Assembly (NCBI GenBank): GCA_949289845.1 | Contig: CASEPN010000002.1 | Location: 186,001-250,000, forward strand | Origin: an uncultured Bacillota bacterium | Lineage (GTDB): Bacteria; Bacillota_I; Bacilli_A; RFN20; CAG-826 | DNA length: 64,000 bases | Direction: 5' to 3' | Shown here: positions 23,192-27,935 of the stretch, in pieces | How the letters are laid out: each line of letters opens with the position of its first letter | Numbering within the stretch: position 1 is the first letter of the stretch | Made by a program: the position numbers and the translations under genes | The notes under the pieces: generated by a model | Seen by the model: the letters and a program-made list of their open reading frames with translations, nothing else | Database searches by the model: none | What the model was told of the DNA's origin: nothing

Positions 23192-23270
23192 CCGTAGCTT
23201 ATATCTCATGAGCGGATGAAACCTCTTTGGGAATCCTTTGGTCAAGTTGCTTGCGAATTACACGGCCGAC

Positions 23271-23362
23271 TTGCAAAACACATAGGCATAGGGTTGCAAA
23301 TCACATAGCGCCGGCCTTGCAAAAACCATAACGACAACCTTGCAAATCCCATAATCCCCCCT
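23271..23362 (+). repeat. Four 23-bp direct repeats upstream of the ATPase gene
   Basis: TTGCAAA-type units start at 23271, 23294, 23317 and 23340, exactly 23 bp apart. The shared part is TTGCAAA(A/T)(C/A)(A/C)C(A)CATA, and the remaining bases vary. Weaker TTGC remnants occur at 23251 and 23362. Spacing of about two helical turns puts every copy on the same DNA face. The array ends at the -35 box of the ATPase promoter, which suggests an operator array. Confidence 0.8.
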
Positions 23363-23391
23363 TGCTGGCGGCAGGTGGTAATAAGTAAAAT
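23362..23391 (+). promoter_or_regulatory. ATPase gene promoter, predicted leaderless
   Basis: TTGCTG (23362-23367), 18-nt spacer, TAAAAT (23386-23391). The box ends 8 nt before the ATG at 23400. Confidence 0.6.
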
Positions 23392-23399
23392 GCAGGCTG

Positions 23400-24704
23400 A
23401 TGCAAAAGAATATTGTCGATGAACCCTATCTTCCCCGCATAGCCGAACAGACGCTTGCCCGAAAATTGGCTTCCGCCGGGTGCGTGCTGATCAGCGGTCC
23501 GAAATTTTGCGGAAAGTCCCGGCTTGCTTCTTGCTATGCCGCTTCTTCAGTGGAACTGACCGATGAAGGGAGCATCGCCCTTGCCAAGGCGGATCCGCGT
23601 GCTCTCCTCCCGGGAGATTCCCCGCGGCTCATCGACGAATGGCAGAAAGTCCCGGTCTTATGGGATCTCATTCGGTCGGATTTGGATCACGGGTATCGGT
23701 TCGGGAAATACATACTCACTGGAAGCGCGACGCCTTCCGACCCATCGATAATTCAGCACTCCGGCGCCGGTCGGATTTCGACGATGATCCTTCGTCCTCT
23801 TTCCTTGTATGAATCTCGCGAATCGCTTGGTGCAGCTTCCCTGAGCTCGCTGTTTTCCGCAAACCCAGAATTCACGATTGTTCCTCCTGGGGAGAATCCG
23901 ATGACGCTTTCGCGAATGGCCTATCTCATTTGCCGCGGGGGATGGCCCCTTTCTGTTTTGGCCGACGAGTCGGCGGCTCTTGATGTGACCGAAGGCTACT
24001 ACGAAGGGCTTTTCCAACAAACGGCGGGGGGCGATGAAACCAGCGCGAGGCTTGCCAACGGGGGAAGGAGCCGCCTTCTCCTTGTGTTGAAGGAACTGGC
24101 CCGCAACATATCGACGCCGGCCTCCATCGCGGGCATGGCCAGGGACATCGCCGCCTCCGGGGAATTTCCGGGCTTTTCACCTGACACATTCATTGGCTGG
24201 AAAGAGTTTCTCGAATCCTATTTCATCGTGTTCGACATGCCTTCGTGGAACAGGAACCTCAGGAGCAGCGTTGTCACGCGAACTTCTCCCGTTCGTCATT
24301 TCTTCGATCCGTCCATCGCCGCCTGCGCGCTCGGGCTCACTCCGGAATCGCTGCTCTTCGATCTTCGTACGTTCGGCTTCTTTTTCGAGGATCTTGTCGC
24401 GCGCGACCTGATGGCCTTTGCTGAATCCATGAAGGCGAGCGTCCGCCATTACAGGGATTCCTCCGACCTTGAGGTGGATTTTATTCTGGAAATGCGGGAC
24501 GGGAGGTATGCCGCGATTGAGGCGAAGCTTGGGAGTCCTGAAGGGGTCGCCATGGGGGTTTCCTCCTTATCTCGCTTCGCCGCGCGCCTTCAGCGGGCCG
24601 GGCAGCCCCTCCCCGCCTTCCGGATGGTTCTCACCAGCCATGGCGCCTGCTATAGAGAAAAGGACGGCACGTATGTCGTCCCTCTCAACTGCCTGAGGCC
24701 CTAG
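23400..24704 (+). CDS. P-loop ATPase with DUF4143-type C-terminal domain
   Basis: A 434-aa protein. An N-terminal AAA-like ATPase has Walker A GPKFCGKS (about residues 33-40), Walker B-like RLIDEWQKVP (about 75-84) and a sensor segment YILTGSATP. The C-terminal half has the features of DUF4143: FEDLVARDLMAF, then HYRD.SDLEVDFIL, then YAAIEAKLG, an arrangement resembling a PD-(D/E)XK nuclease-like fold. Proteins of this type are common, often horizontally spread, and of unproven function. It is preceded by four 23-bp repeats and followed tail-to-tail by an unknown gene. The start is set by the TAAAAT box 8 nt upstream. Confidence 0.82.
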   Translation: MQKNIVDEPYLPRIAEQTLARKLASAGCVLISGPKFCGKSRLASCYAASSVELTDEGSIALAKADPRALLPGDSPRLIDEWQKVPVLWDLIRSDLDHGYRFGKYILTGSATPSDPSIIQHSGAGRISTMILRPLSLYESRESLGAASLSSLFSANPEFTIVPPGENPMTLSRMAYLICRGGWPLSVLADESAALDVTEGYYEGLFQQTAGGDETSARLANGGRSRLLLVLKELARNISTPASIAGMARDIAASGEFPGFSPDTFIGWKEFLESYFIVFDMPSWNRNLRSSVVTRTSPVRHFFDPSIAACALGLTPESLLFDLRTFGFFFEDLVARDLMAFAESMKASVRHYRDSSDLEVDFILEMRDGRYAAIEAKLGSPEGVAMGVSSLSRFAARLQRAGQPLPAFRMVLTSHGACYREKDGTYVVPLNCLRP

Positions 24705-25756
24705 GCGCCCTTTTTCGAGTTCGATCTCGTCTCCATCGCTTCCAGGCGCGTCGCGCGGAAGACCTTCCGGATGTCTTCGAGAAGCTGCGCCTTGTCGTAG
24801 CCGGGGGCGTTCCAGTAGCGGATGACCAAGGCGGGCTTCATCTTTCCGGTTGTCTCGACCCCGTAGAGGTAGTAGTTCGCGATCTTGCTCTTTTGTTGCT
24901 TGGTCAGCCATGCAGAGTTGCCGCTGGCCATGATCACCGCGAGGATGTCATCGCTGAGGCGTCTCAGCTCGGGGCATTCGCCGGAGAAGATGAGGGAAGG
25001 GGCGACCTTCTTGAGAGACGGGTCGTGGTCGATGGAGATGTCCGCGAGCCTCTTTGCCCTCATGGGCCTCCAAGTTTTCCCGTTGTTGTAGATCAGGTGC
25101 ATTTTCCCGTTGGCGTATGCATGCACGCGTCCGTCCGCGTTGATTCGGATGTACCGGATGTCCTTCAGGCGCAGGATTCCCGAGGAGGTCCGGAACTCCA
25201 TCTCGTCCAGCGCTTCCTCGATCATTTGCCGGTAGGCCGGCTCATCCCCGAAGATGGCGCTGGCGATGCGGAAGGGCAGGCACCAGTCCGAGGCGACCCT
25301 GTCCCAAGTGTTCACTCTGGCGAGGAACCTCCTCATCAGCATGTCGTGGCTGAAGAAGCCCATCTCCTTGAGCTTCGCCAAGAGCCTGCCTTTGAGCTTC
25401 AGCCGATTCTTTCCCTCCTTCAGGTCGCTCACGTACTCGCGGTAGAGGCGAAGGGATGAGACGACGTCGAGGTACGCGCGGTTCCGGCTCTTTTCGAACT
25501 CCTTGAGGGCGAGGGCCTCCATCGTTTCCAAGAGCAGGGAACGGGACTTGTTGTCGAGGACGACCATCGCATGAACTAGTTCCTCGATTTTCTTGTTTCC
25601 TGTCAGGCTGGCGACGTCGGGGTCCTTGAGCGCGATGCGATAGGCCCTCTTGATCCTGCTGACGTAGGACGCCGCGCTTTTGGATGTTCCTGTCTTAGGA
25701 TGCGCGTGCACCATGTAGTAGGCCGCGTAGTCGTCGAGATGCGTTTTGAGATCCAT
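24701..25756 (-). CDS. Basic protein of unknown function, 351 aa
   Basis: The product was not recognised. It is lysine- and arginine-rich and mostly helical in its first 200 residues. Residues about 1-110 (with SAASYVSRIKRAYRIAL) recall the core-binding helical domain of site-specific recombinases, but no tyrosine-recombinase catalytic residues follow. The middle (about 205-250, with IRINADGRVHAYANGKMHLIYN) is predicted beta-rich. The ATG at 25756 has GGGAGGAAGG upstream; earlier in-frame starts lack a ribosome site. It is convergent with the ATPase gene and overlaps its end by 4 nt. Nucleic-acid binding is a guess from composition. Confidence 0.6.
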   Translation of the reverse strand: MDLKTHLDDYAAYYMVHAHPKTGTSKSAASYVSRIKRAYRIALKDPDVASLTGNKKIEELVHAMVVLDNKSRSLLLETMEALALKEFEKSRNRAYLDVVSSLRLYREYVSDLKEGKNRLKLKGRLLAKLKEMGFFSHDMLMRRFLARVNTWDRVASDWCLPFRIASAIFGDEPAYRQMIEEALDEMEFRTSSGILRLKDIRYIRINADGRVHAYANGKMHLIYNNGKTWRPMRAKRLADISIDHDPSLKKVAPSLIFSGECPELRRLSDDILAVIMASGNSAWLTKQQKSKIANYYLYGVETTGKMKPALVIRYWNAPGYDKAQLLEDIRKVFRATRLEAMETRSNSKKGA

Positions 25757-25801
25757 GATGTTCCTTCCTCCCTGGATGACCACATCATGGGCTGTCGTTT
25801 T

Positions 25802-25820
25802 GAGATTTTTTAAAAAACTC
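25802..25820. repeat. Inverted repeat upstream of the 351-aa gene
   Basis: GAG(A)TTTTTTAAAAAACTC, nearly symmetrical with one bulged base, about 45 bp upstream of the minus-strand ATG at 25756. It could be an operator or part of the promoter. Confidence 0.45.
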
Positions 25821-25922
25821 GACCGTCGTCCGTTTTTCCGGACACAAATTTTCTCTAGGTCGGGAAGGGGCCGGGTGAGTTTCGAAGTCTTCTTCCGGAT
25901 GGTCACGGGGCTTAAAGGTCTG

Positions 25923-25934: not shown

Positions 25935-26030
25935 ATGAAAAGAGAGGAGAGGCCTGAGGCAAGGACGAATCCGCGGGATCCTTTTCGGATGATTGGGATT
26001 CCTCTCTCTCTCTCTCTCTCTCTTAGGTAG
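25935..26030 (+). CDS. Possible 31-aa leaderless ORF ending in a CT repeat
   Basis: The ORF starts 7 nt after TATATT and ends 20 nt before a terminator, so the stretch 25935-26076 has the makeup of a small transcription unit. The peptide has a charged Arg/Glu-rich first half and ends in alternating Leu-Ser encoded by (CT)11. It may instead be a small RNA with no coding role. Product not recognised. Confidence 0.35.
   Translation: MKREERPEARTNPRDPFRMIGIPLSLSLSLR
26002..26023 (+). repeat. (CT)11 dinucleotide repeat
   Basis: An uninterrupted CT run of 22 bases, prone to slipped-strand length change, inside the small ORF and about 100 bp upstream of a lipoprotein gene. Confidence 0.95.
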
Positions 26031-26123: not shown

Positions 26124-27935
26124 ATGAAGAAGATGCCGCTCATGCTCCTCGCGCTCGCGCTCGTCGCGCTGCCGCTATCATCATGCGGGAACGATGTCGT
26201 CTCGGACACCGGGGCTTCGGAAGCCTCCGAGTCCTTGAAGCCAGTCAGTTCCTCAACCCCCGCGAAGGAGAAGTTCACCCTCACCTTCGAGGCGGACGGG
26301 AAGGTCGTCGAAAGCCTGACCGTGGAGGAAGGGGACTCGGCCGAGTCTCCCGTCGCGCCGGAAAAGGAAGGATATCGATTCCTGGGGTGGGCCTTCGACG
26401 AGGCGGGGAACCGCCTTGCCGATTTCCCCTATTCGCCGAGCGAATCCACGACCCTTTACGCGGTCTATCTATCGAACCTCGACTACTTCCTTGCCGCCCG
26501 GGAGAAGACTCTCGGAGGGGAGGGCTGGCGCTACAAGGACGAGCTTGCCATCCGGACGAAGCTTGGCGCGGGCTCCCTTTCCGTCGACGGCCCCACTGGG
26601 ATCCGGGATGGGGAGGTCGCACATGACGAGGCGGGCGAAGGGACCCACTATTCCCACTACGTCACTTCCGGCGCCCTCTTCTTCGATGGGGAAAGCACGT
26701 CCTATAGGGATGGCACCTCGCTTCTCAAGGTCGAGCAGGACGAGGACGGGAACATCACGGGCGCCACTTCCGCGGTCGCCGTGCCCGGCGTCGAGGACGA
26801 TGGCTCCACCTTCGCCAAGGCGATCTTCGAATACGAGGAGGAAGACATCCACGCCATCCTCGAGACCGAGGAGGAAGGCGTCTACGAGATCGACACGAAG
26901 ATGAATGCCTCCAGCATCATCAAGTCGATCCTGGGGAACCTGAACAACGCGGTCGTGGAGGCCATCGTCGGCGCTCTCCCCGAGACCGTACCCGACTTCG
27001 CGATGTACGTCACCTTCACGGAGGATGGCTACGTCGACACGTACCTTTATGACTTCGAGGTGGAGGTCTCCGTCGCCGGCCAGCCCCAGACCGTCAGCCT
27101 TTCCTACGCGCTCGACTTCACTTCCTACGGGAAGCAGGCGATCGCCGAGCCCTCCTTCCCTGGGCTCTACATCGAGAGGGATGAGATCGCCGGCTTTGTC
27201 GCCGAGGAGAAGGAAGCGATGGGGAAGTACTTGTCCTCGTCCGGGACTTCCTACGACTATGAGCTCAAGACGGACGTCGACTTCAGCGCCCTTTCCCTGG
27301 CCGACTCCATCACCGTCAAGGGCTCCACGAAGCGCGAGATCAAGGGAGGGGAGGTCTACTTCTCGAACATCGTCGAGGTTGATCAGATGGGCTACCTCAA
27401 CGAGGCGGCCGAGGAGTTCCCCGACTACAAGAGGACCCGCGGGAAGACCGCGGACGGGAAGGTCTGGGACGTGAACGACCGCATCTGGCCGCTCTCCGAC
27501 GAGATTGTCGAGGTTACGGGCGACACCTCGCTCGACGAGCACTACCTCCTCCCGTCCCTTCTTCTTGAGGGGGCCTACGTCTCGCTGGCGATCGACGGGG
27601 CGGATGGCACGGCCTTCCATCTCACCAGCGCCGGGGTGATCGCCCTCATGGATTGGATCGACGATTCCGTCCGGCTCGACGAGACGGGCGCGGAGAAGCC
27701 TTCGATCTGGGGCGAGGGGAACGGATATGCCGCGCTTTCCGCGGACGAGGCGCTTCTCACGATCACTAGGGAAACCGGCGTGATGACGGCGATCACCGTC
27801 TCCGTCCAAGGTTCCTACGACGCCAAGATCGGGGAGGACGAGGGGGAAGCGGACCTTTCGATCGACCTCAGCATCGCCCTCACCGCGGACGGGGAGGACT
27901 ACGTCGCTCCCGAAGATGCCGCCGACCTCGTCTAG
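26124..27935 (+). CDS. Large surface lipoprotein with an InlB-type B repeat
   Basis: A 603-aa protein. The signal peptide ends in LPLSSC (Cys about residue 21). A Ser/Thr/Glu-rich linker leads to one Listeria-Bacteroides (InlB B, Flg_new) repeat at about residues 50-115 (FTLTFEADGK..., then GYRFLGWAFDEAGN, then STTLYAVY). The remaining 480 residues are acidic, with many Thr, Ser and Asp, and were not assigned. Such repeats occur in surface proteins of gut Firmicutes, so an adhesion or envelope role is inferred. AAGGAGAAGG precedes the ATG. It is a single-gene unit with its own terminator. Confidence 0.78.
   Translation: MKKMPLMLLALALVALPLSSCGNDVVSDTGASEASESLKPVSSSTPAKEKFTLTFEADGKVVESLTVEEGDSAESPVAPEKEGYRFLGWAFDEAGNRLADFPYSPSESTTLYAVYLSNLDYFLAAREKTLGGEGWRYKDELAIRTKLGAGSLSVDGPTGIRDGEVAHDEAGEGTHYSHYVTSGALFFDGESTSYRDGTSLLKVEQDEDGNITGATSAVAVPGVEDDGSTFAKAIFEYEEEDIHAILETEEEGVYEIDTKMNASSIIKSILGNLNNAVVEAIVGALPETVPDFAMYVTFTEDGYVDTYLYDFEVEVSVAGQPQTVSLSYALDFTSYGKQAIAEPSFPGLYIERDEIAGFVAEEKEAMGKYLSSSGTSYDYELKTDVDFSALSLADSITVKGSTKREIKGGEVYFSNIVEVDQMGYLNEAAEEFPDYKRTRGKTADGKVWDVNDRIWPLSDEIVEVTGDTSLDEHYLLPSLLLEGAYVSLAIDGADGTAFHLTSAGVIALMDWIDDSVRLDETGAEKPSIWGEGNGYAALSADEALLTITRETGVMTAITVSVQGSYDAKIGEDEGEADLSIDLSIALTADGEDYVAPEDAADLV

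Follow-up and report, generated by a model that had tools for sequence, protein, structure and literature searches.

A promoter array of 23-bp direct repeats and its probable role as a gene-specific operator of DUF4143 ATPase genes

Four direct repeats at exact 23-bp steps are embedded in the promoter region of an AAA_14/DUF4143 ATPase gene in the 64,000-nucleotide stretch of DNA analysed here (the window), and arrays of the same period precede the genes of nearly all full-length relatives of the encoded protein. The units differ in sequence from gene to gene, lie in cis to their own gene and keep a conserved motif within each array. These observations and the structure model of the protein lead us to regard the array as probably a dedicated, gene-specific operator, read head to tail by the ATPase encoded downstream, which would in this way regulate its own gene.

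The array and its locus

The motif TTGCAAAnnnCATA occurs in four exact copies starting at positions 23271, 23294, 23317 and 23340, with three steps of 23 bp, as an initial annotation of this DNA had described for its TTGCAAA..CATA units. A weaker fifth copy, TTGCGAATTACAC, begins at 23251, off register and 20 bp ahead of the first exact copy. The array and the features that follow it are:

23251-23264, plus strand: possible degenerate extra unit, TTGCGAATTACACG (weak; from reading the sequence)
23271-23284, plus strand: array unit 1, TTGCAAAACACATA, exact motif
23294-23307, plus strand: array unit 2, TTGCAAATCACATA, exact motif, +23
23317-23330, plus strand: array unit 3, TTGCAAAAACCATA, exact motif, +23
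23340-23353, plus strand: array unit 4, TTGCAAATCCCATA, exact motif, +23
23362-23391, plus strand: core-promoter-like pair, TTGCTG (23362-23367) and TAAAAT (23386-23391) with an 18-bp spacer (from reading the sequence)
23400-24704, plus strand: AAA_14/DUF4143 ATPase, 434 aa (Pfam, AlphaFold, fold search and PADLOC)

Upstream of the ATPase gene the self-match at lag 23 is 31/46, a value equalled by none of 100 dinucleotide-preserving shuffles, and the array, which TRF detects as well, is the sole lag-23 block of at least 30/46 in the 64 kb. Pattern searches across the 1.3 Mb genome returned the motif at zero mismatches at the four array sites only. With one mismatch six sites were found outside the array, all of them lone, and the reversed control pattern gave one. 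The initial annotation had also placed the units on the same face of the helix, which the spacing contradicts: at 10.5 bp per turn of B-DNA a step of 23 bp makes about 2.19 turns, and each unit is turned by about 69 degrees from the one before, the units spiralling round the helix.

The anatomy of these arrays is that of an operator. Among full-length relatives an array mostly holds 3 to 5 units, and the last unit ends a median of 40 bp before the start codon; with a range of 2 to 11 units, no fixed stoichiometry is visible. The proposed tie of the array to the promoter also holds across the family, where -10-like hexamers stand in register with the array and peak 20-23 and 42-44 bp downstream of where the last unit starts, the units' own TAAAAT-like stretch supplying part of the broader promoter-phase signal. 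Units are asymmetric and share one orientation throughout, and palindromic symmetry was found in none of the units tested in family arrays. Averaged over genes they follow a loose skeleton of about GCCAAATnnCnGAATAAAAT, with positions 1 to 14-16 the most conserved within an array, and the conserved core inside the units is accompanied by a variable linker.

In the closest relative (G031) the locus is whole, at 97% identity, and TTGCAAA and CATA are kept in all four units. In another near relative (G022) the ATPase gene has been deleted along with part of the next gene, leaving three drifting TTGCAAA units, and CATA is gone from all three. This orphan, decaying array (L336, G022:C27:1-4400) lies at about 2610-2671. 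Precise mobile-element boundaries were rejected as a description of the locus, the sole comparable empty locus (G022) being an imprecise deletion that spared the array. On the far side of the ATPase gene a 401-residue ORF without a Pfam match (24701-25906, minus strand) converges on it; the relative without the ATPase has this ORF in truncated form. At 26002-26023 of the window eleven CT dinucleotides follow one another in a run, about 100 bp before an ORF at 26124.

Period and unit sequence among relatives

Family members were drawn from the genus, from 80 contigs of named bacteria and archaea, from virus-like contigs, from the phylum and from many-copy genomes. For each distinct protein a predicted start was assigned by homology. 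Lags of 12 to 40 bp were then tried in the 200 bp upstream, and the best of them was compared with 100 shuffles, using a single window size of 46 bp. The best lag was exactly 23 in 202 of 215 distinct full-length relatives, a count of proteins that share ancestry and not of independent events, and in 133/141 cluster representatives at 70% identity and 36/36 at 50%. The other 13 comprised five without a significant lag and eight with lags of 22 (two), 24 (three), 32 (two) or 14 (one). Perfect repeats can collapse or be misassembled in metagenome assemblies. Control promoters, taken from other genes on the same contigs, showed lag 23 in 2 of 172 cases, and distant DUF4143 proteins in 3 of 25. 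Neither absence from orthologous loci nor occurrence before unrelated genes only, the outcomes that the initial annotation had named as contrary to its proposal, was thus found, and its suggestion that the array could be a clue to DUF4143 function gains from a period that is general in the subfamily.

The family is present in Bacteroidota, Bacillota (including Mycoplasma-like genomes in which TGA encodes Trp), Spirochaetota, Fibrobacter, Actinomycetota (Bifidobacterium and Gardnerella), Succinivibrio and a Methanomassiliicoccaceae archaeon. Its distribution is uneven: within the phylum it was found in 75 of 295 genomes, and plasmids or virus-like contigs carry some of the copies. Even where protein identity is as low as about 33% and the unit sequences differ, the 23-bp step persists.

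The sequence of the units is the property of a gene and its close relatives. Unit similarity was 0.94 at more than 90% protein identity and fell from there, levelling off at about 0.57 below 50%, tracking protein similarity among close relatives only. The archaeon (G335, 1.6 Mb) carries about 20 intact members, and the 17 analysed have a different 23-mer each, most often repeated 3 to 7 times perfectly or nearly so; a further member (L279) has a step of 24. One of these 23-mers (L255) stands in five tandem copies at its own gene, and a search of the genome allowing up to three mismatches gave no further site. Among archaeal paralogs that are 50-60% identical the mean unit similarity is 0.56, compared with 0.62 elsewhere, a difference too weak for us to claim extra divergence within one genome. 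The perfect and near-perfect tandems of most archaeal paralogs (among L255, L264 and L266-L282) look as if arrays were often re-homogenised.

A similar picture was obtained in the window genome, where 11 genes match DUF4143 and four, one of them stop-interrupted, belong to the subfamily of the window protein. Both other intact members have an array at the exact 23-bp step directly upstream, with different units (CAACGgAyAT-type at L001, GCCAACTTGTAAAGTAAAA at L003). The stop-interrupted paralog (L010/L051, G000:C1:515200-517200) has an array reduced to degraded traces. On reading, the seven DUF4143 genes of other types showed no obvious array, and the window motif itself was absent from the other DUF4143 genes of this genome. 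The expectation that further DUF4143 genes would have similar arrays is not supported, the property common to the subfamily paralogs being the period and not the sequence.

Linkage was confined to the ATPase gene. Across 69 loci no neighbour family recurred at more than 3, and neither a linked regulator gene nor a conserved partner gene of the kind expected for a two-gene toxin-antitoxin system was found in them. The ATPase is thus the sole product that always travels with an array.

The encoded ATPase as candidate reader

The window protein matches Pfam DUF4143 (PF13635; E 8e-25, 87.9 bits, cut-off 28.1) and AAA_14 (PF13173; E 3.4e-9, 37.2 bits, cut-off 27), both above the curated cut-offs, and an NCBIfam search returned no family. 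Its AlphaFold model (mean pLDDT 92) predicts a STAND-like ATPase domain at about residues 10-140 and a winged helix at 222-280, made up of helices 222-235, 243-252 and 261-273 and a strand at 277-280. The best folds were 2qen (Z 14.3 over 257 residues) and 2fna (Z 13.2), followed by NLR and CED-4 proteins, and the model thus describes an AAA/STAND-like ATPase with a predicted winged helix. The PDB comparison covers the C-terminal domain poorly, and the nuclease likeness there is one of residue pattern, with E358, D360, E374 and K376 in a PD-(D/E)XK-like arrangement and invariant or nearly so. Among the 215 full-length members G33, G38, K39 and D360 are kept in all, and D79, E80, E374 and K376 in 214; judged by these residues, the window protein has an intact Walker A motif, an intact Walker B motif and an intact PD-(D/E)XK-like pattern.

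We also asked which residues vary together with the unit. In a first set of 82 genes the co-variation peaked at the recognition helix, and in a larger set the same statistic (a partial-Mantel version) peaked at residues 84-93, in the ATPase domain and not the winged helix. In pairs matched for identity, residues 256-266 (recognition helix), 288-296 (after the wing) and 350-357 were best tied to unit similarity. The regional means of 256-266, 276-296 and 350-357, and likewise of a weaker region at 80-97, exceeded all 60 label permutations, a null that does not model phylogeny. The matched pairs appear to point at a DNA-reading face, and we take them as suggestive only because the other statistic peaks at 84-93.

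The initial annotation had left the choice between a regulator and the ATPase itself as the bound protein. The ATPase is favoured as reader since units are specific to their gene and linkage extends to no other gene, and it would itself bind the array. In favour of self-binding we counted lag 23 in 202/215, the gene-specific units, the cis-only motif, the lack of a linked neighbour, the winged helix of the model, the co-varying residues, the one-way, non-palindromic units, the -10 register and the loss of CATA in G022. Against it we counted the disagreement of the co-variation statistics and the few members at 22, 24 or 32 bp or without a detectable array.

We propose that several ATPase protomers would bind the asymmetric 14-16 bp sites of the direct repeats head to tail, one per 23 bp, each contacting DNA through its winged helix and touching the next across the 7-9 bp linker, so that the fixed 23-bp step would be the protomer repeat of a nucleoprotein assembly. 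The assembly, presumably ATP-dependent, would form on or against the -35/-10 region and would most likely repress, rather than activate, its own gene, so that the level of each copy would be set without regard to its paralogs. Conservation of the ATPase and PD-(D/E)XK-like sites suggests a further action on DNA, which the protein, assembled or released, might exert as, for example, a nuclease triggered by phage or by loss of the array. A far-reaching version, which we consider rather improbable, would be a self-addressed ATPase-nuclease that polymerises on its own fast-diverging 23-bp barcode array. The array would then both set expression and keep the enzyme inactive, paralogs would be insulated by the divergence of their barcodes, and a disturbance of the array or of its occupancy would trigger the nuclease.

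Part of this version can be stated separately, with the array as a DNA-encoded antidote that holds the ATPase-nuclease inactive until loss or degradation of the locus, through plasmid loss or phage attack, frees the nuclease. We think this unlikely. It would suit the retention of D360, E374 and K376 in at least 214/215 members, the single-gene, cis-only and gene-specific arrays and the match to the defence candidate PDC-S01, but autoregulation is the simpler account of the promoter overlap, the nuclease activity is putative, and G022, with its gene lost and its array kept, is uninformative on the point. The antidote is compatible with self-regulation and could be its second half.

That a separate host factor, either a global regulator or a nucleoid protein, binds the array and controls the ATPase genes, the ATPase not being the reader, strikes us as decidedly unlikely. 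The promoter position would fit such a factor, as would a weak common skeleton of about GCCAAATnnCnGAA in many units. Yet paralogs within one genome differ in their units, and a single regulator common to the paralogs could not recognise every one of these; a linked regulator gene was not found, and the same period recurs in bacteria and in an archaeon, which have few regulators in common.

Plasmid Rep iterons are short direct repeats that precede the gene for the protein reading them, occupied cooperatively and involved in autoregulation, usually with a step of 17-22 bp. The tandem 23-bp repeats resemble them in standing next to the gene of the presumed reader, and the patchy occurrence of the family, with some copies on plasmids or virus-like contigs, would agree with a small mobile element whose origin or maintenance site is the array, the ATPase-nuclease initiating replication or integration there and the promoter overlap being incidental. 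We give this little chance. Unlike iterons, the arrays have a 23-bp step and a unit of their own for each chromosomal paralog, with no origin features known, and Pfam returned AAA_14 and DUF4143 only for the window protein, with no replication-initiator (Rep) domain. The neighbours are unrelated chromosomal genes, and in the single comparison available, that of G022 with the window, the gene and part of its neighbour were lost while the array stayed, which is not the behaviour of a precise unit. Neutral tandem duplication by slippage, without function, can practically be discarded: perfect tandem copies make up many archaeal arrays, which recent expansion predicts, but the conservation of the period (202/215 against 2/172 controls) across differing sequences cannot be drift, and the unit core is conserved while the linker varies.

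Known systems and other DUF4143 types

Operator reading by the ATPase can be set beside auto-repressed toxin-antitoxin modules, which have locus-specific palindromic operators and insulated paralogs. Locus-specific operators (putative here) and insulated paralogs would be shared; the window family differs in having a single gene with no recurring partner, and direct repeats instead of palindromes. A CRISPR array was excluded, the tandem 23-bp units having 7-9 bp linkers, sometimes perfect copies and no unique spacers. The archaeal STAND-like ATPases PABY2304 (2qen) and SSO1545 (2fna) are the best structural matches to the ATPase and winged-helix part, with sequence identity of only 16-17% and the C-terminal PD-(D/E)XK-like domain outside the matched range.

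The family may function in defence, to judge by its match to PDC-S01, a single-gene phage-defence candidate of PADLOC. Profile PDLC04790 of this set matches the window protein nearly over its full length (residues 9-432, E 1.5e-56, PADLOC's own cut-off not being applied). The PDC-S01 profiles also include weaker DUF4143 types, most of them without an array here. PDC-S01 is described in PMC12988326 as unvalidated and very common, ranking fourth in abundance among the defence systems of prokaryotes, and a promoter array is not mentioned in the literature passages on PDC-S01 that we consulted. No published account of the arrays was found in the literature searched, mostly outside subscription journals and preprints; phrases for 23-bp repeats returned nothing relevant, and DUF4143 was mentioned in passing only.

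For PDC-S01 neither a validated activity nor a ligand is known. An array with an invariant 23-bp step offers a candidate DNA substrate for nearly every member of the family and makes binding, stoichiometry, ATP dependence and cleavage directly testable. Dozens of natural protein-operator pairs provide material for learning a recognition code, and if the ATPase reads the array, the family would be a source of orthogonal repressor-operator pairs.

In most other DUF4143 subfamilies no array was detected. Four distant DUF4143 genes of Bifidobacterium panos (L293, L294, L295 and L297 in G333; HMM 84-112 bits) have clean period-23 arrays with units of their own, and the feature thus extends past the subfamily. 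Upstream of another DUF4143 type (L009) there is a palindrome around GTAGAATTCTAC, which occurs near L081 as well; other subfamilies may have palindromic operators. In several DUF4143 genes of Bacteroidota, mostly of distant types (L302, L303, L262, L246 and L079), the best lag upstream is 32-33 bp, longer than 23 by about one helical turn, and one of them (L246) is preceded by a mixed GCCAAA-type array too.
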